Assembly (NCBI RefSeq): GCF_002020355.1
Contig: NZ_MPZV01000002.1
Location: 372,001 to 436,000 of the forward strand
Direction of reading: 5' to 3'
From: Thioclava sediminum
GTDB lineage: Bacteria > Pseudomonadota > Alphaproteobacteria > Rhodobacterales > Rhodobacteraceae
DNA: 64,000 bases
Part shown: piece by piece, positions 4,448 through 58,652 of the stretch
How the letters are laid out: each line of letters begins with the position of its first letter
Position numbering within the stretch: the stretch's first letter is position 1
Translations under genes and position numbers: made by a program
The notes under the pieces: model-generated
What the model was told of the DNA's origin: nothing
Database searches by the model: none
Seen by the model: only the letters and a program-made list of their open reading frames with translations

Positions 4448-7219
4448 GTGACCAGCATGACAGACCCCGCCCCGGCATCGACCGGGGCGCCCCTCCTTCT
4501 AAATCAACAGCGTTTGTTCGAGGCGCTCGACGCAGCGACCTCAGACATGCGCGACCCGAAGGACATCCGGGCCGCTACGGTGACCTTCCTCTCCGAGGAA
4601 CGCCGCGCCGCTGCCGCCGCGATCGAGGCCGATTTCGAAACCCATCCGCGCGCCGCGCGCGACACGGTCGAAGCCTATGCCCAGATGACCGACGGAATCG
4701 TCCGCTCGGTGCTGCGCATCGCGACGCAGCGTCTGCACCCCAGCGGCATCCGTACCGAGGCGGAGCGTTTCGCGGTGCTCGCCGTGGGCGGGTATGGCCG
4801 GGCCGAGATGGCACCGCATTCCGATGTCGATCTGCTGTTTCTCACCCCCTACAAGGTCACCCCCTGGGCCGAGAGCGTCATCGAGTCGATGCTCTACATG
4901 CTCTGGGATCTGAAGCTGAAGGTGGGGCATTCGTCCCGCACGCTCGACGACTGCATCCGGCTCGGGCGCGAGGACATCACGATCCGCACCGCCCTTCTCG
5001 AACATCGCTGCGTGGGCGGCGACGAGAAGCTGGCCGAGGCGCTGTCGCTCCGGCTTCGTCACGATCTCTTCGAGGGCAGCGAGGCCGAGTTCATCGAGGC
5101 CAAGCTGGAGGAACGCTCGCAGCGCCACCGCCGTCAGGGCGGGCAGCGTTACGTGCTCGAACCCAATGTGAAAGAGGGCAAGGGGGGCTTGCGCGACCTG
5201 CAGACCCTCTACTGGATCGGCAAATATATCCATCACGTGGGCCGCGCCCGCGAATTGATGAAGATCGGCGCCTTCTCCCCCGAGGAATACGAAACCTTCC
5301 ACGAGGCCGAGAATTACCTCTGGGCGGTGCGCTGCCACCTGCATCTGATCTCGGGCCGCGCCTCGGATCAGCTGACCTTCGACATGCAGGTCGAAGTGGC
5401 TGAGCGCATGGGCTATCGCGATCTGGCGGGCCGCCGCGCGGTCGAGGTCTTCATGCAGGATTACTTCCGCCACGCGACCGCCGTGGGCGACGTGACCCGC
5501 ATCTTCCTGACCAAGCTCGAAGCGCAGCACGTGAAAAGCGCGCCGATGCTGCAGCGGATTTTCCGCAGGCGGCGCAAGCTGAAAGCCCCCTATTGCGAAG
5601 AGAACGGGCGCATAAATGTCGCCGACGAGAAGGCGTTCCTCTCCGATCCGGTGAACCTGCTGCGGCTGTTCGAGGAAGGGCTGCGCTCGGGGATGCTGAT
5701 CCACCCCGACGCGATGCGGCTTGTTTCGGCCAATCTCGACCTGATCGACGACAAGGTGCGCAATAACCGCGAGGCGCAGCGCATCTTCCTCGATCTGCTG
5801 CTAAAGCACGGCAACCCGGAACGCGCGCTGCGGCGGATGAACGAGCTGGGCGTGCTGGCCGCCTTCATCCCGGAATTCGAGCCGATCGTCGCGATGATGC
5901 AGTTCAACATGTATCACAGCTACACGGTGGACGAGCACACGATTCAGGTCGTCTCGACGCTCGCGCAGATCGAGCGCGGCGAGTTGGTCGAGGATCTGCC
6001 GCTGTCGTCGCACATCCTCGAAGAAGGCATCAATCGCAAGGTTCTCTACGTCGCGCTGCTGGTGCATGACATCGGCAAGGGACGGCCCGAGGACCACTCG
6101 ATCCTCGGTGCGAAGATCGCCCGCAAGGTCGCGCCGCGGCTGGGGCTGAATCAGGAGGATTCCGAGACCGTCGAATGGCTGGTGCGCCACCACCTTCTGA
6201 TGTCCGACGTGGCGCAGAAACGCGATCTCTCGGACCCGCGCACGATCCGCGATTTCGCCAAGCGCGTGAAGTCGCGCAAGCGGCTCGACCTGCTGACAGT
6301 GCTGACCGTCTGCGACATTCGCGGCGTCGGCCCGAATGTCTGGAACAACTGGAAAGCCACGCTGCTGCGCAAGCTGCATTCCGAGACCGCGATGGCGCTT
6401 GAGCACGGGCTGGAAGCGGTCAATCGCGAGCAGCGCACCGACGAGGCCAAGCGTGCCTTGCGCGAGGTGCTGGAGGCGGATGACAACTGGGACAAGGCAC
6501 AAATCCGCGCCGAGCTGGCCCGGCACTACGCGCCCTATTGGCAGGCGCTCGCCACCATCAATCACGAGATCTTCGCGCGGCTCCTGCGCGATCTGGGCGA
6601 TGACGAAATCCGTATCGACCTGCATCCCGACGACGATCACGACGCGACCCGCGTGAGCTTCGCGCTGGCCGATCACCCCGGCATCTTCTCGCGGCTCTCC
6701 GGCGCGCTGGCGCTGGTCGGCGCGAATGTGGTCGACGCGCGCACCTATACCTCGAAGGACGGCTATGCGACCGCCGTCTTCTGGGTGCAGGATGCCGAGG
6801 GTCACCCCTATGAGGCCTCGAAACTGACCCGTCTGCGCGGCATGATCGAGAAGACGCTGAAAGGCGAGGTCGTCGCCCGCGAGGCGCTCAAGGATCGCGA
6901 CAAGCTCAAGAAGCGTGAGCGCGAGTTCAAGTTCCCGACCCATATCACCATCGACAACGAGGGATCGGATATCTACACGATCATCGAAGTCGATACCCGC
7001 GACCGGCCCGGCCTCCTCTACGACCTGACCCGTGCGTTGGCGTCGAACAATATCTCGATCTCCTCGGCGGTGATCGCCACCTATGGCGCGCAGGTCGTGG
7101 ACAGCTTCTATGTGAAAGACATGTTCGGCCTGAAACTGCATTCCAAACCCCGCCAGGAAGCGCTCGAGAAGAAGCTGATGGACGCCATCGCGTCGGGCGC
7201 GAAACGGGCGGGCAACTAA
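4448..7219 (+). CDS. glnD: bifunctional [protein-PII] uridylyltransferase/uridylyl-removing enzyme
   Basis: GlnD senses glutamine and adds or removes UMP on PII proteins, setting nitrogen regulation. Domains in order: nucleotidyltransferase with GGYGRAEMAPHSDVDLLFL (about 114-132), helical PII-UTase region, HD hydrolase domain with DEHTIQ and HDIGKGRPEDHS (about 495-550), and two C-terminal ACT domains (VSFALADHPGIFSRLSGAL and EVDTRDRPGLLYDLTRAL). At 923 aa it is full length. The start is GTG 4448 (AGGGA 12 bases upstream) or ATG 4457. The stop lies one base before murJ. Confidence 0.97.
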   Translation: MTSMTDPAPASTGAPLLLNQQRLFEALDAATSDMRDPKDIRAATVTFLSEERRAAAAAIEADFETHPRAARDTVEAYAQMTDGIVRSVLRIATQRLHPSGIRTEAERFAVLAVGGYGRAEMAPHSDVDLLFLTPYKVTPWAESVIESMLYMLWDLKLKVGHSSRTLDDCIRLGREDITIRTALLEHRCVGGDEKLAEALSLRLRHDLFEGSEAEFIEAKLEERSQRHRRQGGQRYVLEPNVKEGKGGLRDLQTLYWIGKYIHHVGRARELMKIGAFSPEEYETFHEAENYLWAVRCHLHLISGRASDQLTFDMQVEVAERMGYRDLAGRRAVEVFMQDYFRHATAVGDVTRIFLTKLEAQHVKSAPMLQRIFRRRRKLKAPYCEENGRINVADEKAFLSDPVNLLRLFEEGLRSGMLIHPDAMRLVSANLDLIDDKVRNNREAQRIFLDLLLKHGNPERALRRMNELGVLAAFIPEFEPIVAMMQFNMYHSYTVDEHTIQVVSTLAQIERGELVEDLPLSSHILEEGINRKVLYVALLVHDIGKGRPEDHSILGAKIARKVAPRLGLNQEDSETVEWLVRHHLLMSDVAQKRDLSDPRTIRDFAKRVKSRKRLDLLTVLTVCDIRGVGPNVWNNWKATLLRKLHSETAMALEHGLEAVNREQRTDEAKRALREVLEADDNWDKAQIRAELARHYAPYWQALATINHEIFARLLRDLGDDEIRIDLHPDDDHDATRVSFALADHPGIFSRLSGALALVGANVVDARTYTSKDGYATAVFWVQDAEGHPYEASKLTRLRGMIEKTLKGEVVAREALKDRDKLKKREREFKFPTHITIDNEGSDIYTIIEVDTRDRPGLLYDLTRALASNNISISSAVIATYGAQVVDSFYVKDMFGLKLHSKPRQEALEKKLMDAIASGAKRAGN

Positions 7220-50915: not shown

Positions 50916-53012
50916 CTACCCGTTCAGATCCTTGATCAGCCGCCCGTGTTTGCGCAGCTCGGCCACCAATTCGCCGAAGGTCCGCAAGCCCCGCGCCTGC
51001 AGCGCCGGGAGCATCTTCAGGAACGCATCCGCCGTCGCGACCGTATCGCCGATCGCGGTGTGGCGCGCTTCCTCGGGGATGGTGATGCCGAGGCGATGGG
51101 TCAGCGCGTCGAGCGTGTGGCTCTCGGATTGCCCGAACACCACCGCCGACAGCAGCACCGTGTCGAGGATCGGGTGATCGAACCGTTCGCCGATCGCCAC
51201 CTCCTTGCGATGCAGGAATTCCATGTCGAAAGGCGCGTTATGCGCGATCAGCACCGCACCCTCGGCGAAGCGGTGGAAATCGCGCCCCACCTGCGCAATG
51301 TCCGGCGCGCCTTCGACCATCGCGTTCGAGATGCCATGCACCTCGGTCGAGCCGGGCGGGATCGAGCGCTTGGGATCGACGAGCGTGTCGAAGACCTCGG
51401 TATCGATCCGCCGACCGTTGACGATGCGCACGGCGGCGATCTGCACGATCTCGTCGCCCTCGGTGGGCAGCAGGCCCGTGGTCTCGGTGTCGAAGACGAC
51501 ATAGGTCAGATCGGTCAGCGGCGTGTCGGCGATTTCGGCCACGCGCTCGCGCGAGAGCAGGTCGAAATCATAGACCACCGCGCGCGGCACCGGCTTCGGG
51601 CGCTTGGTGACATGGCGCGCTTCGCGCAGCGGGATGCAGAGCCGCGCACGCGTGTCGCCCAGCTTCTCGGGCCAGATTTCGGCGGCATGGGTGGTCAGCA
51701 CGCGATGCCCGGTGACATCCTCCAGCCCGACATCGAGCGGCTGATCGAGCCAGCGCTCCAGCTCGGAGATCGGGACCGGCGCGCCTTCCCATTCCAGCGC
51801 GATCAGCGCTCCGGGGCCGTCCTCGGTGATCTCCAGCCGGAAATCGCGCCGGTCGGTCAGGCGGCGCACCAGCCCCGCCAGCAGGGCCACCATCTCGAAG
51901 CCCTCGCAGCGTAGCATCAGCCCCGCGGTGACCGGCAGGATCGCCCCGCCCTCGGCGGTCACCCGCGCGGCCACCGCCTGACCCAGATCGGAGGCGCGGA
52001 TCATCGCGAGCGGCCACCAATCGGCGCGGTTCGCCTCGTGGCGCTCGAAGAATTCGTGGATCGCGGCGGAGAGGTGATGGGCCTCGGAATTGGCGGCCTC
52101 ACGGACGCGGTCGCGCTCGGGGCCCGGCGCGGGGCCGTCATCGGCGGTCAGCACCCCGATCAGCGATTGCAGGGCTGCGGCAGGGCGGCGGATGCGGTCG
52201 AACAGCTCGTCCATCAACTGCTCGCGCTGCGCATGAGAGGCCATGTCGCCCGAGACATCGCGCAGCGTCAGCACATAGCCCGGGCGCGCGCTCAGATGGT
52301 GATCCTCGCCCTCCGACAAAAGCCGCATCCGGGCGGCGAGCACCCGGCCCTCCGCCTTCGTCGAACACAGCAGATCCGAGGCCGCATCCGGGTCTTCGGT
52401 GGCCAGAAGCCGGTCATAGGCATGGGCAATCGGCGGCTGGTTGAGATAGTCGAAGACGCGCCGATCCAGCCCCGGCGCATGGGCAGAGCCCATGAGTTCC
52501 ACCGCCTGCCCGTTATAGAAGGCCAACTGATGATCGGCGGTGCAAAGCAGCACGCCCACCGGCACATCCGACAAGAGCGCCTCGAGCCGTTCCTTTTCCT
52601 GCGCGAGCCGCGTGGTCTCGCGCTGCACGGCTTCGGTCAGGGCGTTGCGGGTCTCCGACAGGTGGCGCGTAACCGAGGCGGCGGCAGGCGCCAGATCGCC
52701 CAGATAACGCGCGATATCGGCGTCCATATCGCCCTCGATCTCGGCCGTGGTGCGGGCGCGCAGCATCCCCGAGAGCCGCTCGATCGGCTTGGCCACGTTC
52801 TCGTCGAAGAGAAACCAGATCCACGCGATCAGCCCGAGGATCACGAAGCCCGCAACCGCGCCGCCGATCACCATCGCATTCAGAAGCTCAGGGTCGCCAA
52901 GCCGGGTGAAGCCGAACCACAATCCCGCCACCAGCGCCACCAGATTGCCGAGCGCCAAGGCGGCGAAGAACAGAAACACCCGGGTGCGCAGGGAAAGCCG
53001 GGTGAGGTCCAT
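50916..53012 (-). CDS. membrane-anchored PAS / degenerate-kinase / DnaQ-type 3'-5' exonuclease fusion
   Basis: A 698-aa protein. Two transmembrane segments (about 11-33, 47-69) are followed by a HAMP-like and coiled-coil region (70-140), a PAS domain (about 141-255, LEALLSDVPVGVLLCTADHQ), a dimerisation-like helix without phospho-acceptor His (ELFDRIRRPAAALQSLIGVL, 269-288), a poorly conserved kinase-ATPase-like region without G boxes, and a complete DEDDh exonuclease domain: DTE 508-510, Asp596 in HNAPFDMEFL, His651 and Asp656 in HTAIGD. Such proteins are found beside VC_2705-type acetate symporter genes. It is the last gene of the leftward acetate locus and overlaps the receiver gene by one base. 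Role unknown. Confidence 0.85.
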   Translation of the reverse strand: MDLTRLSLRTRVFLFFAALALGNLVALVAGLWFGFTRLGDPELLNAMVIGGAVAGFVILGLIAWIWFLFDENVAKPIERLSGMLRARTTAEIEGDMDADIARYLGDLAPAAASVTRHLSETRNALTEAVQRETTRLAQEKERLEALLSDVPVGVLLCTADHQLAFYNGQAVELMGSAHAPGLDRRVFDYLNQPPIAHAYDRLLATEDPDAASDLLCSTKAEGRVLAARMRLLSEGEDHHLSARPGYVLTLRDVSGDMASHAQREQLMDELFDRIRRPAAALQSLIGVLTADDGPAPGPERDRVREAANSEAHHLSAAIHEFFERHEANRADWWPLAMIRASDLGQAVAARVTAEGGAILPVTAGLMLRCEGFEMVALLAGLVRRLTDRRDFRLEITEDGPGALIALEWEGAPVPISELERWLDQPLDVGLEDVTGHRVLTTHAAEIWPEKLGDTRARLCIPLREARHVTKRPKPVPRAVVYDFDLLSRERVAEIADTPLTDLTYVVFDTETTGLLPTEGDEIVQIAAVRIVNGRRIDTEVFDTLVDPKRSIPPGSTEVHGISNAMVEGAPDIAQVGRDFHRFAEGAVLIAHNAPFDMEFLHRKEVAIGERFDHPILDTVLLSAVVFGQSESHTLDALTHRLGITIPEEARHTAIGDTVATADAFLKMLPALQARGLRTFGELVAELRKHGRLIKDLNG

Positions 53013-53401
53013 CAGGCCGTCTCCCCGTCGAGAATGCGGTGGACCTCCTCGCGCAACTCGCGCAGCTCGAAGGGTTTGGCGATGAAACCGTCGGCACCGA
53101 GCGCGAGGCCCTTGCGGCGCTCCATCGCGGAGCCGCGCGCAGTCATCATCAGGATCTTCACATCGCCGAGGCCCTTATCGGCGCGCACGCCCTCGCAGAT
53201 CTCGTAGCCCGAGACCTCGGGCAGCATCACGTCAAGGAGCACCAGATCGGGGCGGGTCTCGCGGATTTTCTCCAGCGCGCCGCGCCCGGTATCGATCCGG
53301 TCATGCTCGAACCCCTCGCGGCTCATCAGATAGTCGAGCGCGATGGCGATATTGTCCTCATCCTCCACGATCAGGACGCGATGTTTCCTCCCCCCCGGCA
53401 T
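53012..53401 (-). CDS. stand-alone response regulator receiver protein
   Basis: A 129-aa CheY-like receiver: acidic pocket VEDED near residue 13-16, phospho-acceptor Asp57 (LVLLDVMLP), Thr in MMTARG and Lys109 in FIAKPF. There is no output domain. It overlaps the start of the sensor-exonuclease gene and follows a membrane-protein gene by 4 bases. The partner encoded next to it lacks a phosphorylatable His, so the kinase that feeds this receiver must be elsewhere. Confidence 0.93.
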   Translation of the reverse strand: MPGGRKHRVLIVEDEDNIAIALDYLMSREGFEHDRIDTGRGALEKIRETRPDLVLLDVMLPEVSGYEICEGVRADKGLGDVKILMMTARGSAMERRKGLALGADGFIAKPFELRELREEVHRILDGETA

Positions 53402-53405
53402 GGTC

Positions 53406-53942
53406 TCATCCTCCTGCGCATACCGCTTTCAGCCCCGGGTCGTCGGGCGTGAGTTTCAGCCAGCCGCCGCCCGACAGCTCTCCGTCTTTCGTCAGCGTGG
53501 CCCCGTTCACCAGATCGGCGCGGCTGTCGGTCTTGCAGTCATAGACCGTCGGCACCGTCTGCAAATTCTGCCAGCGCCCGATCAGCAGCAGATCCGTCTC
53601 GGCCAGCTCCGGCTTGCCCGCCACCGGATGCTCCACCTTGCCCGCATCGACCGCCATGAAACGCGTGACCATCGGCACAAGGTAGGTCCAGGGCCGCCAC
53701 GGCACGCTCTCGTCGATCGGCTGCAGCACGACGACCGTATCGGGCATCTCGGAGCGCATATTGGGGAACCACGAATACTCGCTCCAGACCGTATAGCCGA
53801 TCAGCGCCGCCCCGATGGCTGCGGGCATCGCCCATTTCGGCAGCTTCTCGCCGCGGAACCTCTTGCTCAGATGCGAGAGCAGGAAGACCACGAGGGCGGC
53901 CAGCAGGCCCGCAGCAAGGGTCGAGATGAAGTCGTTCGTCAT
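53406..53942 (-). CDS. membrane protein of unknown function in the acetate locus
   Basis: A 178-aa protein with two N-terminal hydrophobic segments (about 5-23 and 39-56) separated by a basic loop (SHLSKRFRGEKLPKW), then a likely periplasmic domain of about 115 residues with two Cys (YDCKTDS and the C-terminal VCAGG). No family was recognised. Tight spacing (9 bases after the DUF294 gene, 4 before the receiver) makes it part of the same operon. Confidence 0.75.
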   Translation of the reverse strand: MTNDFISTLAAGLLAALVVFLLSHLSKRFRGEKLPKWAMPAAIGAALIGYTVWSEYSWFPNMRSEMPDTVVVLQPIDESVPWRPWTYLVPMVTRFMAVDAGKVEHPVAGKPELAETDLLLIGRWQNLQTVPTVYDCKTDSRADLVNGATLTKDGELSGGGWLKLTPDDPGLKAVCAGG

Positions 53943-53951
53943 AAGCTCTCC

Positions 53952-55781
53952 TCAGCTCATCGCGCCTTTGCCGTGACCGGCGGCCGATTGCATGGTGCGC
54001 ACCACCACGAAGGCGTCGCGCAGATGCGAGCGTTCGAAATCGGACAGGTCCGAGGGTGCAAGATAATTGTCGGGCTTGCGCCCCGAGCGCGCGAGATGCG
54101 CCTGGTTCTCCAGCCGCATCGACGCGATCAGATCATAGGCCTCGACCAGATCACGCGCGCCGGAATGGCTCAGCACGCCGGCATGTTCGGCCTCGATCAG
54201 ACGGGCGCGGGTGTTCACCTCCGGAAGGCGGCCCTGCAGCGCGTAGATGCGCGCCAGATCGGTCACCGGGACCACGCCGTTATGCTTCATGTCGATATGG
54301 TTGCGATGCTCGCCCGAGCGGATCGTGGCGAAGCCCCGGATCAGGCCGAGCGGCGGGTGATGCTTGAGGCTGTTGGCGATCATATGGGCCACGAAGATCG
54401 AGTTCTTCGACGCCTTCGCCAGGGTCTCTTTCTGCAACTGCTGGAACAGCCCCGCCCCGTTGCCGCCGATCGCGCGCAGATCGAACATCACCGAGGCGAG
54501 CATCTGCGCCTCGGGGTTGGGCTTGGCGATCCAGCCGCGGAAATAGTCGCGCCAGACGCGGACCGGCTGACACCAACGCGGGTTCGTCGCCATCATGTCG
54601 CCGGGGCAATAGACGTAGCCGCAGGCATCCAGCCCGTCCGAGACGATTTTCGCGAGCTGGCGGAAATACTCCATATCCGCTTCGGTCACGGCGTCGTCGA
54701 GGATCAGGCAATTGTCCTGATCGGACACCCCGGTCTGCTCCTGACGCCCCTGCGAGCCGCAGGCCAGCCACAGATAGGGCACCGGCGGCGGCCCCAGCGC
54801 CTCCTCGGCCATCTTCAGCAGGCGGCGCGTGACCGCATCGGCGATATCGGTGATCAGCCGGGTAATGACCTCATGCGCGTGATGCCCGCCCACGAGCTGC
54901 ACCAGAAGCTGCGGGATACGCGCGGTGACGGTAGCCATTTCCGGCACGGTCTCGGCGCCCGCCACATCGCGGATCAGCACGGCCGAGCTGACGGCCTGAA
55001 AGCGGGTCAGATCGGTTTGGGTGATCATGCCCACGAAGCGCCCGCGATCGGTGATCGGCAGGTGACCGACGCGCTTTTCCAGCATGACATGCAGAAGGTC
55101 GGTACCCAGCCCCTCGGGGGGCAGCGTCACCGGATCAGGGGTCATCACCTCGCCCACCGGCGTATCGGGCGCGCGGCCTTCGGCCAGAACCTTGTTCGAC
55201 AGGTCGCGCACTGTGACGATGCCCACCAGCGCACCCTCGCCATCGGTCACGCCGAGCGAGGAGATATGCGCATCGCGCATCTGCCGCGCAGCCTCGGTGA
55301 CGGTGGTCTCGGGCGCGCAGCCCATCGGCTCTTGCGCCAGAAGATCGGCGATCTTCATCGTCGCGATGGAATTGGTGCGGGTCTCGCCGCCGCGCACCCG
55401 GTTGAAGAAGCGCGCGAAGGCGGGGGTGTTTTGCGACAGCTCGCGGAACTCTTCGACCGGCAGCTCCAGCAAAACGGTCTCGGCGGTGGTGCGCGCGGTG
55501 GTCGCGGCCAGACCGTCGCGCATCAGCCCGCGCTCGCCAAAGGTGTTGCGCGCGCCGAGGATCGAGACCAGCGCCCCGTTCTGATCGGTGACTTCGACCG
55601 CGCCGCGCTTGATCAGGTAGATGCCCTTGAGCGGCTCGCGATAGGAGTAGACGGTCTCGCCCGCGGGCAATTCTCTGCGGCGGAAGGAACTGGCGACATG
55701 CTCCAGCTCGTTGCGCGACAGATTGTCGTAAGGGTGGACGCCTTCGAGAAATGCGAGGATCGGGGTCAGATCGGCGGCCAT
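53952..55781 (-). CDS. cNMP-binding / CBS / DUF294 nucleotidyltransferase-like protein
   Basis: A 609-aa cytosolic protein. A cyclic-nucleotide-binding domain fills about 15-130 (FGERGLMRDGLAATTART), a CBS pair about 150-265 (ISSLGVTDGEGALVGIVTV; VGHLPITDRGRFVGMITQ), and a DUF294 nucleotidyltransferase domain starts near 300 with CGSQGRQEQTGVSDQDNCLI (Gly342, Ser343, Asp354, Asp356), then a C-terminal helical domain. The layout resembles GlnD-like signal transducers: a ligand sensor coupled to a nucleotidyl transferase. It directly follows the symporter gene and is a probable regulator of acetate transport or metabolism; its target is unknown. Confidence 0.9.
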   Translation of the reverse strand: MAADLTPILAFLEGVHPYDNLSRNELEHVASSFRRRELPAGETVYSYREPLKGIYLIKRGAVEVTDQNGALVSILGARNTFGERGLMRDGLAATTARTTAETVLLELPVEEFRELSQNTPAFARFFNRVRGGETRTNSIATMKIADLLAQEPMGCAPETTVTEAARQMRDAHISSLGVTDGEGALVGIVTVRDLSNKVLAEGRAPDTPVGEVMTPDPVTLPPEGLGTDLLHVMLEKRVGHLPITDRGRFVGMITQTDLTRFQAVSSAVLIRDVAGAETVPEMATVTARIPQLLVQLVGGHHAHEVITRLITDIADAVTRRLLKMAEEALGPPPVPYLWLACGSQGRQEQTGVSDQDNCLILDDAVTEADMEYFRQLAKIVSDGLDACGYVYCPGDMMATNPRWCQPVRVWRDYFRGWIAKPNPEAQMLASVMFDLRAIGGNGAGLFQQLQKETLAKASKNSIFVAHMIANSLKHHPPLGLIRGFATIRSGEHRNHIDMKHNGVVPVTDLARIYALQGRLPEVNTRARLIEAEHAGVLSHSGARDLVEAYDLIASMRLENQAHLARSGRKPDNYLAPSDLSDFERSHLRDAFVVVRTMQSAAGHGKGAMS

Positions 55782-55874: not shown

Positions 55875-57614
55875 TTAGTGGTCGACTGCCGCACCGGCGC
55901 CTTTCGGCACGCGGATCGACTCGACGAGCTCCTGGATATCTTCCGGGGTCTCTTTGGTCGCGTTCGACACGACATAGGCCACGATGAAGTTCAGGACCGC
56001 GCCGATAACCCCGAAGGAGGTCGACTTGATCGAGAGGATCATCGGGTTCGCATCCGTGAACGTGTTGGTGTCCGGGATGAAGAACCAGCCCTTGTGCAGG
56101 AAGATGTAGATCAGCGTGGTCGCGAGACCCGTGAGCATACCTGCAACAGCACCGGTGTTGTTGATGCGCTTCGTGAAGATGCCCATCATCAGTGCCGGGA
56201 AGATCGACGACGCTGCCAGACCGAAGGCCAGAGCCACCGTCTGTGCCGCGAAGCCGGGCGGGTTCAGACCCAGATAGGTCGCCACGACGATCGCCACGGC
56301 CATCGAGATACGGGCGGCCAGAAGCTCGCCTTTTTCCGAGATGCCCGGATTGATCTGCGACTTGATCAGGTCGTGCGAGACCGCCGACGAGATCGCCATC
56401 AGAAGACCAGCCGCCGTCGACAGAGCCGCAGCCAGACCACCGGCCGCCACCAGCGCGATCACCCAACCCGGCAGGTTGGCGATCTCGGGGTTGGCGAGCG
56501 TGATGATGTCGCGGTTCACGGTCAGTTCGTTTGCGTCGCTCGCATTGTACTCGATGCGGCCGTCGCCGTTCTTGTCGTCGAAGGACAGAAGACCGGTCTG
56601 GGCCCAGTTACGCACCCAAGCGAGGTTCTGGTCGTTCTCGATCGCGGTCATTTCCACGGCCGGCTCGTTCACGCCATTCGGGTAGAAGGTCGAAACGAGG
56701 TTCAGACGCGCCATCGCACCCACAGCCGGAGCGGTCAGGTAGAGAAGCGCGATGAACACCAGCGCCCAACCCGCCGAGGAACGCGCGTCGGCGACCTTCG
56801 GAACGGTGAAGAAGCGCACGATGACGTGGGGCAGACCGGCGGTACCGATCATCAGCGTCATGGTGAACAGGAACATGTTCAGCGTGGTGTCATGCTGGCC
56901 GGTGTAGGACGCGAAGCCCAGAGCCTCGACGGTGTCGTTCAGCGTCGACAGGATCGGCGCGCCGGTGTTGACGTCGTTCGAGAACAGGCCAAGACCCGGG
57001 ATCGGGTTGCCGGTCAGCTGCAGCGAGATGAAGATCGCCGGGATGGTGTAGGCGATGATCAGCACGACGTACTGAGCCACCTGCGTGTAGGTGATGCCCT
57101 TCATGCCGCCCAGAACCGCGTAGAGGAACACGATCGCCGCGCCGATGAACAGGCCGGTGGTGTTGTCCACTTCGAGGAAGCGCGAGAACGCAACGCCCAC
57201 GCCGGTCATCTGACCGATAACGTAGGTGATCGACGCAACGATAAGGCAGATAACGGCCACGGTGCGCGCGGTTTGCGAATAGAAACGGTCGCCGATGAAT
57301 TCCGGCACGGTGAACTTGCCGAACTTGCGCAGATAGGGTGCAAGCAGCATGGCCAGAAGCACGTAGCCACCGGTCCAACCCATCAGATAGGTCGAGGTGT
57401 CGTAGCCGCCAAAGGCGATGAGGCCTGCCATCGAGATGAACGACGCGGCCGACATCCAGTCAGCGCCCGTAGCCATACCGTTGACGACCGGGTGAACGCC
57501 GCGACCCGCGGCGTAGAATTCCGACGTGGAACCCGCACGGGCCCAGATCGCGATGCCGATGTAGAGCACGAAAGTCGCGCCGACCACCAGCAGGTTGAGG
57601 GTAAACTGATCCAT
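55875..57614 (-). CDS. sodium:solute symporter, VC_2705 subfamily (acetate permease ActP-like)
   Basis: A 579-aa SSS-family transporter with about 13 hydrophobic segments. Landmarks are YAAGRGVHPVVNGMATGADW, SFISMAGLIAFGGYDTSTY, the large LPHVIVRFFTVPKVADARSS motif, and AAALSTAAGLLMAISSAVSH, typical of ActP-like symporters. Pairing with a DUF4212 small subunit places it in the VC_2705 subfamily. It probably takes up acetate or other short carboxylates with Na+. acs lies upstream on the same strand. Confidence 0.92.
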   Translation of the reverse strand: MDQFTLNLLVVGATFVLYIGIAIWARAGSTSEFYAAGRGVHPVVNGMATGADWMSAASFISMAGLIAFGGYDTSTYLMGWTGGYVLLAMLLAPYLRKFGKFTVPEFIGDRFYSQTARTVAVICLIVASITYVIGQMTGVGVAFSRFLEVDNTTGLFIGAAIVFLYAVLGGMKGITYTQVAQYVVLIIAYTIPAIFISLQLTGNPIPGLGLFSNDVNTGAPILSTLNDTVEALGFASYTGQHDTTLNMFLFTMTLMIGTAGLPHVIVRFFTVPKVADARSSAGWALVFIALLYLTAPAVGAMARLNLVSTFYPNGVNEPAVEMTAIENDQNLAWVRNWAQTGLLSFDDKNGDGRIEYNASDANELTVNRDIITLANPEIANLPGWVIALVAAGGLAAALSTAAGLLMAISSAVSHDLIKSQINPGISEKGELLAARISMAVAIVVATYLGLNPPGFAAQTVALAFGLAASSIFPALMMGIFTKRINNTGAVAGMLTGLATTLIYIFLHKGWFFIPDTNTFTDANPMILSIKSTSFGVIGAVLNFIVAYVVSNATKETPEDIQELVESIRVPKGAGAAVDH

Positions 57615-57635: not shown

Positions 57636-57893
57636 TTATTCTTCGACGCCGTGCTCGCGGTCCAGTTTGTTCATCCGCCACGCATAGGTGAAGATGAGCA
57701 CCAGGAACACGAGGATCGAACCTTGCTGGGCGAACCAGAAGCCAAGATCAGTGCCACCAATTTTGATGCCTGCCAGCATCGGGCGCAGCAGGATGCCGAA
57801 GCCGAAGGACACGATGAACCAGATCACCAGAGAAATCTGGATGGTCCGGATATTCGCCTTCCAATAGGCGTTGGACGAGGATTTGTCCGCCAT
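57636..57893 (-). CDS. DUF4212 protein, small subunit of the symporter
   Basis: An 85-aa protein with two membrane segments (about 19-37 and 51-69): KANIRTIQISLVIWFIVSFG and FWFAQQGSILVFLVLIFTYA. The family (sodium/substrate symporter small subunit) is almost always encoded just before a VC_2705-type symporter, as here (21-base gap). AAGGGAG precedes the ATG at 57893; the upstream in-frame ATG at 57953 is not supported. Confidence 0.93.
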   Translation of the reverse strand: MADKSSSNAYWKANIRTIQISLVIWFIVSFGFGILLRPMLAGIKIGGTDLGFWFAQQGSILVFLVLIFTYAWRMNKLDREHGVEE

Positions 57894-57956
57894 GAGACTA
57901 ACTCCCTTTAGTTTCTCTCCAGACGGGCCCCTCATGGGCCCGCCCCTCCCCAAAAT

Positions 57957-58652
57957 TCAGGCCGAGACGCGCTTTACGATCGACCCAAGGCCCGAGGCGA
58001 TCTCGTCGATGGAGCCCATCGCGTCGATCTCCTCGAGAACACCGAGCGCCTTGTAATGGGCGATCAGCGGTGCCGTTTGCGCGTGGTAGGCCTCCAGCCT
58101 CGCGCGCGCCGTCTCGGCATTGTCGTCGGCCCGGCGTTTGAACTCCGTGCCGCCGCATTTGTCGCAAACACCCGCAACTTCGGGCTGTTTGAACTCGTCG
58201 TGATAGCCTTCGCCGCATTTGGCGCAGGTGTATCGGCCGGCGACGCGGGCGATCATCGCCTCGTCATCGACCTCCAGGCTGATCGCTGCGGTCACCGACT
58301 GGCCATTCTCCTCCAGAAGACCGTCGAGCGCCGCAGCCTGACCGGCGGTGCGTGGGAACCCGTCGAGGATCACCCCTTTCGCAACATCCGGTTCAGCCAT
58401 GCGATCTTGCAGGATCGCCAGAACGATCTCGTCCGAGACGAGGCCGCCCTCCTCCATCACCGCTTTCGCGGCGAGACCGGCCTCGGTGCCCTGAGACACC
58501 GCGGCCCGCAGAAGATCGCCCGTCGAGAGCTGCACGAGGCCGAAGGTCTCTTCGAGCATCCGCGCCTGCGTGCCCTTGCCCGCGCCCGGAGGGCCGAGAA
58601 GGATCAGAACGGCAGGCTTGGTCTGCGTCATGGTCGTGCTGTCCGACATCAT
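57957..58652 (-). CDS. adk: adenylate kinase
   Basis: A 231-aa long-form adenylate kinase that interconverts AMP, ADP and ATP. The P-loop is [12 protein letters not shown], the AMP site contains [11 protein letters not shown], and the LID has a four-Cys zinc site ([22 protein letters not shown]). The ATG overlaps the acs stop by four bases, an alternative start being the MTQTKPAV Met at residue 8. Coupling to acs is meaningful, since acetyl-CoA synthetase makes AMP, which adenylate kinase recycles. Confidence 0.95.

Follow-up and report, generated by a model that had tools for sequence, protein, structure and literature searches.

What does a protein do that is built like a membrane sensor kinase and ends in a nuclease? 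The question is raised by a gene of Thioclava sediminum (Rhodobacteraceae) in a 64,000-nucleotide stretch of its genome, which as a whole is called the window below. An initial annotation, made from the letters alone, had described the encoded protein as a fusion of membrane helices, a PAS domain and a degenerate kinase-like core with an exonuclease domain, and had proposed that a membrane or PAS signal controls the nuclease. The outputs of two-component systems are in most cases transcription or one of a few kinds of signalling enzyme; with a receiver-linked pseudokinase that carries an exonuclease in intact form, nucleic-acid or nucleotidyl hydrolysis would join this list. No description of such a fusion was found in the open PMC text searched (subscription papers and preprints were outside this scope), and the available portion of PMC10434189, one candidate considered, is unrelated to it.

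Layout of the fusion protein

The features of the locus are collected in Table 1. Hydropathy peaks at residues 12-30 and inside 44-74 agree with the AlphaFold model on the two membrane helices that had been proposed, and the loop joining them is only about 7-14 residues long (model and hydropathy); therefore, the fusion has no periplasmic ligand domain. The helix that follows, at residues 98-148, is probably a coiled coil. The model (input alignment of 73 sequences; mean pLDDT 77.3) shows a PAS fold at about residues 150-252, hairpin helices at 253-289 and 298-330, a CA-like domain at 337-467 and a DEDDh domain at 503-673, with a pTM of 0.37 that makes the relative orientation of the domains unreliable. 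The PAS assignment stands on this fold and on relatives: in the window protein the Pfam match is below the cut-off (PAS_4, 19.1 bits vs. 23.1), two of the three full-layout relatives scanned (L144 and L153) are above a PAS cut-off, and the third (L156) has no PAS match. One Cys of the domain, C157 (52542-52544, minus strand), is invariant across the 73 aligned sequences and is a possible redox or ligand site.

A Foldseek search of the PDB with the model returned top rows that mix sensor kinases with PolC/epsilon exonucleases, the kinase matches being WalK and the sensor histidine kinase 4i5s and, in lower rows, ThkA-TrrA, HK853-RR468 and DivL. Among the matches listed, query-length TM-scores were at most 0.25, and the rmsd was >14 for most kinase matches. 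That is, single domains match, not the overall arrangement of the fusion.

Table 1. Features of the fusion gene and its neighbours (window positions; residues are those of the fusion protein)
Feature	Position	Strand	Details
TM-PAS-pseudokinase-DEDDh exonuclease ORF	50916..53012	-	698 aa
DEDDh exonuclease domain	50994..51506	-	residues 503-673; D508, E510, D596, H651, D656
CA-like (dead ATPase) domain	51612..52004	-	residues 337-467; W408 at DxGxG Asp position
DHp-like helix hairpin	52023..52256	-	residues 253-330; D272 at phospho-acceptor His position
PAS domain	52257..52565	-	residues 150-252; weak Pfam match, relatives, model
Long helix	52569..52721	-	residues 98-148; alignment and model
Membrane helix 2	52815..52883	-	about residues 44-66, within long helix 43-89; hydropathy and model
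Membrane helix 1	52923..52979	-	residues 12-30; hydropathy and helix 8-36 in model
Single-domain receiver (REC)	53012..53401	-	129 aa; D57/T87/K109, intact phospho-site
178-aa protein	53406..53942	-	N-terminal hydrophobic stretch (by eye)
cNMP-binding - CBS - DUF294 nucleotidyltransferase	53952..55781	-	609 aa; Pfam
VC_2705-family sodium/solute symporter, large subunit	55875..57614	-	TIGR03648, 822 bits, cut-off 320.75
Symporter small subunit, DUF4212	57636..57953	-	Pfam, NCBIfam
Adenylate kinase	57957..58652	-	one of two above Pfam cut-off in genome, the other on contig C1

An intact exonuclease behind a dead kinase core

The C-terminal domain matches Pfam RNase_T over residues 505-664 with 127.2 bits (cut-off 24), and its best solved relative by sequence is 2p1j. 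All five catalytic residues of the DnaQ family, as claimed at the outset, are present in the window protein and in its relatives. Within the close set, which includes the window protein, D508, E510 and D596 are found in 81/81 rows and H651 and D656 in 80/80 readable rows; the wide set keeps these two groups of residues in 205/205 and 204/205 rows (one gap), respectively, and none of the three architectural classes (133, 16 and 56 loci; one row incomplete) shows a change in them. The fusion is not a chance join, given that 205 non-identical relatives, one with an incomplete row, retain these residues. Judged by its catalytic residues, the protein would have a membrane-bound, 3'-5' exonuclease-type activity.

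The middle region, in turn, matched neither HisKA nor HATPase_c of Pfam in the window protein. Profile comparison with kinases of the same genome (the 9 of 30 fetched that passed a motif filter) related it to them with a probability of 97.3 and an E-value of 1.9e-11, and the alignment pairs the phospho-acceptor His with D272, the N-box Asn with R384 and the Asp of DxGxG (G1) with W408. A DHp plus CA fold is thus indicated by the model, by Foldseek (with the low whole-protein TM-scores given above) and by the profile alignment; the structure prediction that had been suggested as a check for a dead kinase fold does show a helix hairpin and a CA-like domain.

The pattern extends well beyond the window. 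We aligned 134 cores, i.e., the window's and 133 non-identical receiver-bearing copies, comprising 94 close rows from the window's own family and 40 other rows (two of which, L163 and L248, are also from this family). The phospho-acceptor position holds His in 0/134 copies and Asp or Glu in 120/134 (91/94 close and 29/40 remaining rows), while the G1 Asp position of the ATP site holds Trp in 133/134 and Asp in 0/134. Among the 40 more distant rows, three have Asn at the N-box; in the 94 close rows, it is not one of the five commonest residues, which account for 82 of them. In addition, W408, G410, W421, H442 and W447 are nearly invariant across the 134 copies; hence, the dead domain is under selection. 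Judged by these residues, the pseudokinase state of the core is fixed across at least 13 families. The initial annotation was therefore right that the phospho-acceptor His and the ATP-site residues are missing and that the protein is not a working sensor kinase, and since the core is not a working kinase and the nuclease residues are intact, the nuclease is the probable output.

Distribution of the fusion

The nearest record, L017, is 99% identical over the fusion, and a full copy is present in Rhodobacter capsulatus, a laboratory species (L012). A search of the class (Alphaproteobacteria) found matches in 234/240 genomes, mostly, among the matches listed, to the exonuclease domain alone, and six genomes besides the window's (L082-L087) match over much of the PAS, core and nuclease. 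Further full or nearly full copies were found in other classes by a profile search of the phylum across 398 genomes (L119-L143). Of the 149 genomes from the own family, each representing a different genus, 72 match at E 1e-40, and 60 of these 72, plus a few more, were examined. Other layouts among the relatives are TM-PAS-exonuclease, TM-exonuclease and exonuclease-CBS-DUF294, so that full, hairpin-shortened, core-less, TM-only and DUF294-fused proteins are available as natural variants for direct comparison.

Co-occurrence of an upstream receiver gene with the hairpin

Directly upstream of the fusion gene lies a gene for a single-domain receiver, the last base of which belongs to the first codon of the fusion, one base being common to both genes. 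The phospho-Asp and the Lys of the receiver are present in 157/157 rows, a set that counts duplicates and the window's receiver itself. To count loci, we used distinct exonuclease sequences only (205 of 229) and dropped four for a short upstream flank, leaving 201; a receiver was called directly upstream when its frame lay on the same strand within -700 to +400 bases of the stop-to-stop frame of the fusion. By this definition, 133 of the 201 loci have an adjacent receiver. The CA-like domain is present in all 133, the hairpin profile was found in 126, and the distance from PAS to CA, 76-131 residues with a median of 82, is at least 76 in every one.

The 68 loci that have no adjacent receiver divide into 54 lacking the core, among which an adjacent receiver occurs in 0/54, and 14 with the CA-like part. 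In 10 of these 14 only 15-64 residues separate PAS from CA, i.e., the hairpin is shortened, and the other four (L144, L158, L236 and L252) have a full-length hairpin. L144 encodes a receiver 50% identical to the window's about 4.6 kb away, upstream of an SLC5-type sensor kinase; for the other three, the best genome-wide receiver matches reach E 1e-19 to 1e-24, no improvement on three core-less genomes (E 1e-20 to 4e-25). Conversely, L165 and L166 have no core, yet their loci retain a receiver, encoded upstream of an SLC5-type kinase. With profile scores <200, eight of the 54 core-less loci encode distant exonucleases, which may have been without the core from the start.

Overall, receiver and hairpin are strongly associated, with a nearly one-to-one correspondence between them. 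On an exonuclease tree of 133 loci (close relatives thinned; weakly supported), we counted 12 changes in the hairpin trait and 16 in the receiver trait; the receiver tracks the hairpin in nearly all pairings and never goes in the opposite direction, with supported branches providing only 3 independent pairs (p 0.25). Covariation between receiver and fusion gave no signal for the hairpin, which holds 4 of the top 100 pairs vs. 12.6 expected, perhaps because the effective number of sequences was only 76.

Transporter, nucleotidyltransferase and sensor kinase genes alongside

On the minus strand, the gene order is adenylate kinase, DUF4212, symporter, cNMP-CBS-DUF294 protein, 178-aa protein, receiver and fusion. 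No NCBIfam model matches the 178-aa protein, and no Pfam model does so above cut-off; it has a relative, whether or not a receiver is present, at 74/80 of the close own-family loci L001-L080 (the best 80 of 185, in which the full architecture is over-represented) and at 58/60 of the own-family loci L184-L243. In the 150 loci that span 10 kb or more, DUF294 (domains inside the exonuclease protein itself excluded) is present in 141, namely 82/85 with the hairpin profile and 59/65 without it; the symporter in 133 (79/85 and 54/65); and DUF4212 in 74/85 and 50/65. In L097, L099 and L106, DEDDh exonuclease, CBS pair and DUF294 nucleotidyltransferase form one polypeptide of about 700 aa (Pfam). Such an exonuclease-CBS-DUF294 protein also occurs in the contexts of L170-L172 and L183 (the last by similarity only), and those of L170, L171 and L183 include an SSF/DUF4212 symporter as well. 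The adenylate kinase beside the symporter genes may recycle AMP from acyl-CoA synthesis. Elsewhere in the window, a 953-aa frame, presumably GlnD, has a weak DUF294 match at about 4649-4852 on the plus strand (22.3 bits vs. a cut-off of 21).

In other families, an SLC5-type sensor kinase is encoded in 17 of the 22 receiver-bearing loci, on the same strand and separated from the fusion by 4-587 bases; for the own family, the fetched stretches contain it in 1/95 such loci. Stretch lengths vary, kinases or transporters beyond the ends being uncounted, and two of the five receiver-bearing loci that have no such kinase are short (L147, 7.5 kb; L154, 10 kb). The kinases of L144, L165 and L166 have HisKA and HATPase_c in Pfam and no receiver domain of their own by Pfam; the SSF model is above cut-off in that of L165, and the other two were called SLC5-type by similarity. 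The closest SLC5-type kinase of the Thioclava genome (G000:C1:566949-569639) adjoins another single-domain receiver, 36% identical to the window's. Two side observations concern regulators: an SLC5-type kinase and a single-domain receiver lie near an XRE-type regulator in L308 (G000:C1, ~566.9-571 kb; regulator by eye), and L144:12383-18076 contains an SLC5-type kinase, a receiver and an XRE-type regulator with the short-chain fatty acyl-CoA regulator domain PF09856.

Proposed mechanism and alternatives

We favor, as moderately probable, the view that the fusion is a membrane exonuclease and that a phosphorylated receiver docks on its pseudokinase hairpin, so that PAS and two-component signals together gate hydrolysis, the protein acting with the CBS-DUF294 nucleotidyltransferase. 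The TM-coil-PAS part would determine which state is taken by a helix bundle that is probably a dimer, and the degenerate histidine kinase bundle would offer a docking surface to the receiver encoded just upstream. The receiver would be phosphorylated by a genuine kinase, probably of the SLC5 type, the gene for which is a neighbour in many families and lies at another place in the window's genome. Once on the hairpin, the phospho-receiver would move the C-terminal DEDDh domains or alter their dimer state and thereby gate, in one direction or the other, the hydrolysis of a nucleotide substrate, for which nanoRNA and the products of cyclic dinucleotides, suggested at the outset, are candidates; together with the nucleotidyltransferase, the module would regulate the uptake or use of short-chain carboxylates. 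Docking on the hairpin is favored because receiver presence tracks the hairpin and because the fold matches include solved complexes of kinase and receiver, and it is weakened by the covariation null, by the small number of supported pairs (3) and by the four hairpin loci lacking an adjacent receiver. Likewise, the SLC5-type kinase is favored as the phosphate source because of its linkage in 17/22 receiver-bearing loci of other families, and this link is weakened in the own family by the 1/95 loci and by the different receiver beside the Thioclava kinase. The receiver and transporter genes that lie alongside in many bacteria hint at a nuclease switched by a nutrient signal.

A more specific version, which we put forward tentatively and regard as doubtful, is that the DEDDh domain, as the direct output of a two-component system, is a phospho-receiver-gated membrane phosphodiesterase that removes a nucleotide from a protein, or an RNA tail, added by the CBS-DUF294 enzyme, the pair serving as a post-transcriptional switch of short-chain carboxylate uptake in Pseudomonadota. 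Such opposing chemistry of adding and removing is suggested by the DUF294 link, most strongly where both enzymes are one polypeptide.

It is unlikely that the nuclease is instead regulated by the TM-PAS part alone, with the core a leftover dimerisation scaffold and the receiver acting elsewhere in the operon. In favor of this reading, the core in the own family is present in 27 of the 60 loci examined and absent in 33 (one with a flank too short to judge the receiver), and these 33 keep the exonuclease, the same neighbours and, in 27 cases, the PAS profile. Because the N-terminal part thus usually stays when the core is lost, membrane or PAS control, as originally proposed, is plausible; what that proposal overlooked is the upstream receiver, strongly tied to the core, together with the linked SLC5-type kinase, CBS-DUF294 nucleotidyltransferase and symporter. 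Compared with five relatives, dN/dS is <1 for every part of the fusion (rough values, since dS is >1 in some parts), with the exonuclease (0.08-0.14) among the most constrained, the hairpin at 0.09-0.31 and the CA-like part (0.17-0.53) among the fastest-evolving folded parts. The latter value and the lack of a covariation signal in the hairpin would suit a leftover scaffold; the nearly one-to-one association of receiver and hairpin, and the selection evident from Trp408, Gly410, Trp421, His442 and Trp447, would not.

Distinctly less probable is that the target of the pseudokinase is the genuine SLC5-type kinase, with which it would form a heterodimer or compete for the receiver, and that the exonuclease is a second, independent function. 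The same-strand linkage in other families and the presence of DivL, a kinase-like regulator, among the fold matches fit this idea, which is countered by the 94/95 receiver-bearing stretches of the own family that have no such kinase, yet retain core and receiver. Finally, a DNA repair, proofreading or defence nuclease in an incidental neighbourhood is highly improbable: the closest exonuclease profiles and structures do include PolC and DNA polymerase III epsilon, and PADLOC models DEDDh and PDC-S48 do match, but the fusion scores 115.5 against the cut-off of 222.7 for proteobacterial DnaQ (TIGR01406), for which we rejected a replicative epsilon identity, the genome has two further RNase_T proteins, the PADLOC matches are confined to the exonuclease domain, apart from weak matches of the upstream receiver in two models, for which a defence system was rejected, and the linkage to DUF294 and symporter holds across families.

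Comparison with known systems

The Caulobacter protein DivL uses a kinase fold without a phospho-acceptor His, which is replaced by Tyr, and is thought to read a single-domain receiver. The fusion resembles it in the kinase fold (the DivL structure 4q20 is a Foldseek match) and differs in having an exonuclease, which DivL does not, and in carrying mostly Asp or Glu at the His position and Trp at the ATP-site Asp. With PolC-type and DnaQ exonucleases, the fusion shares the fold and the five catalytic residues; unlike them, it carries a membrane PAS-pseudokinase and sits outside a replication context.

CrbS and RpuS combine an SLC5 symporter domain with a kinase and are linked to acetate or pyruvate; in the portions of the reports available, the SLC5/STAC kinases described are of the hybrid kind, and those of S. 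fredii go with LuxR-type regulators (PMC9100948, PMC5715377). The SLC5-type kinases of L144, L165 and L166 differ in having no receiver of their own (Pfam) and in sitting with a single-domain receiver. Nor does the window locus fit the CrbS/CrbR layout, its receiver being a single domain of 129 aa, as opposed to the DNA-binding LuxR regulator of that system.

A close described counterpart comes from Pseudomonas. According to the passages available of PMC9927547, PP_0353 of P. putida, an RNase_T protein, forms an operon with the CBS protein PP_0354 that is a target of MxtR/ErdR (CrbS/CrbR); its deletion slows growth on pyruvate and has no effect on acetate or succinate, deletion of the CBS partner leaves growth on succinate, acetate and pyruvate unaffected, and homologues adjoin actP/yjcH in P. 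aeruginosa. PA3232-PA3235 of P. aeruginosa are about 16-fold up during growth on propionate, and PA3233-PA3235 are 2-fold down after propionate addition, as given in the part of PMC9765439 available. The pyruvate phenotype and the propionate response, whichever its direction, support by analogy a role of the exonuclease module near short-chain carboxylate use; our mechanism is weakened by the lack of a growth phenotype in the CBS-partner mutant and of any phenotype in a P. fluorescens mutant of a cNMP-CBS-nucleotidyltransferase gene, as described in the available text of PMC5715377. The P. putida pair is like the fusion locus in joining an RNase_T exonuclease with a CBS-domain partner (likened by description, not by sequence), and unlike it in that the available text of PMC9927547 mentions no membrane, PAS or kinase-like part and has the regulator acting on promoters, as opposed to the receiver-linked fusion. 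The link between exonuclease/DUF294 and transporter was already noted in Pseudomonas, without a mechanism; with the fusion, the reason why acetate/pyruvate-type transporters are accompanied by DnaQ-like exonucleases and DUF294 nucleotidyltransferases becomes testable.
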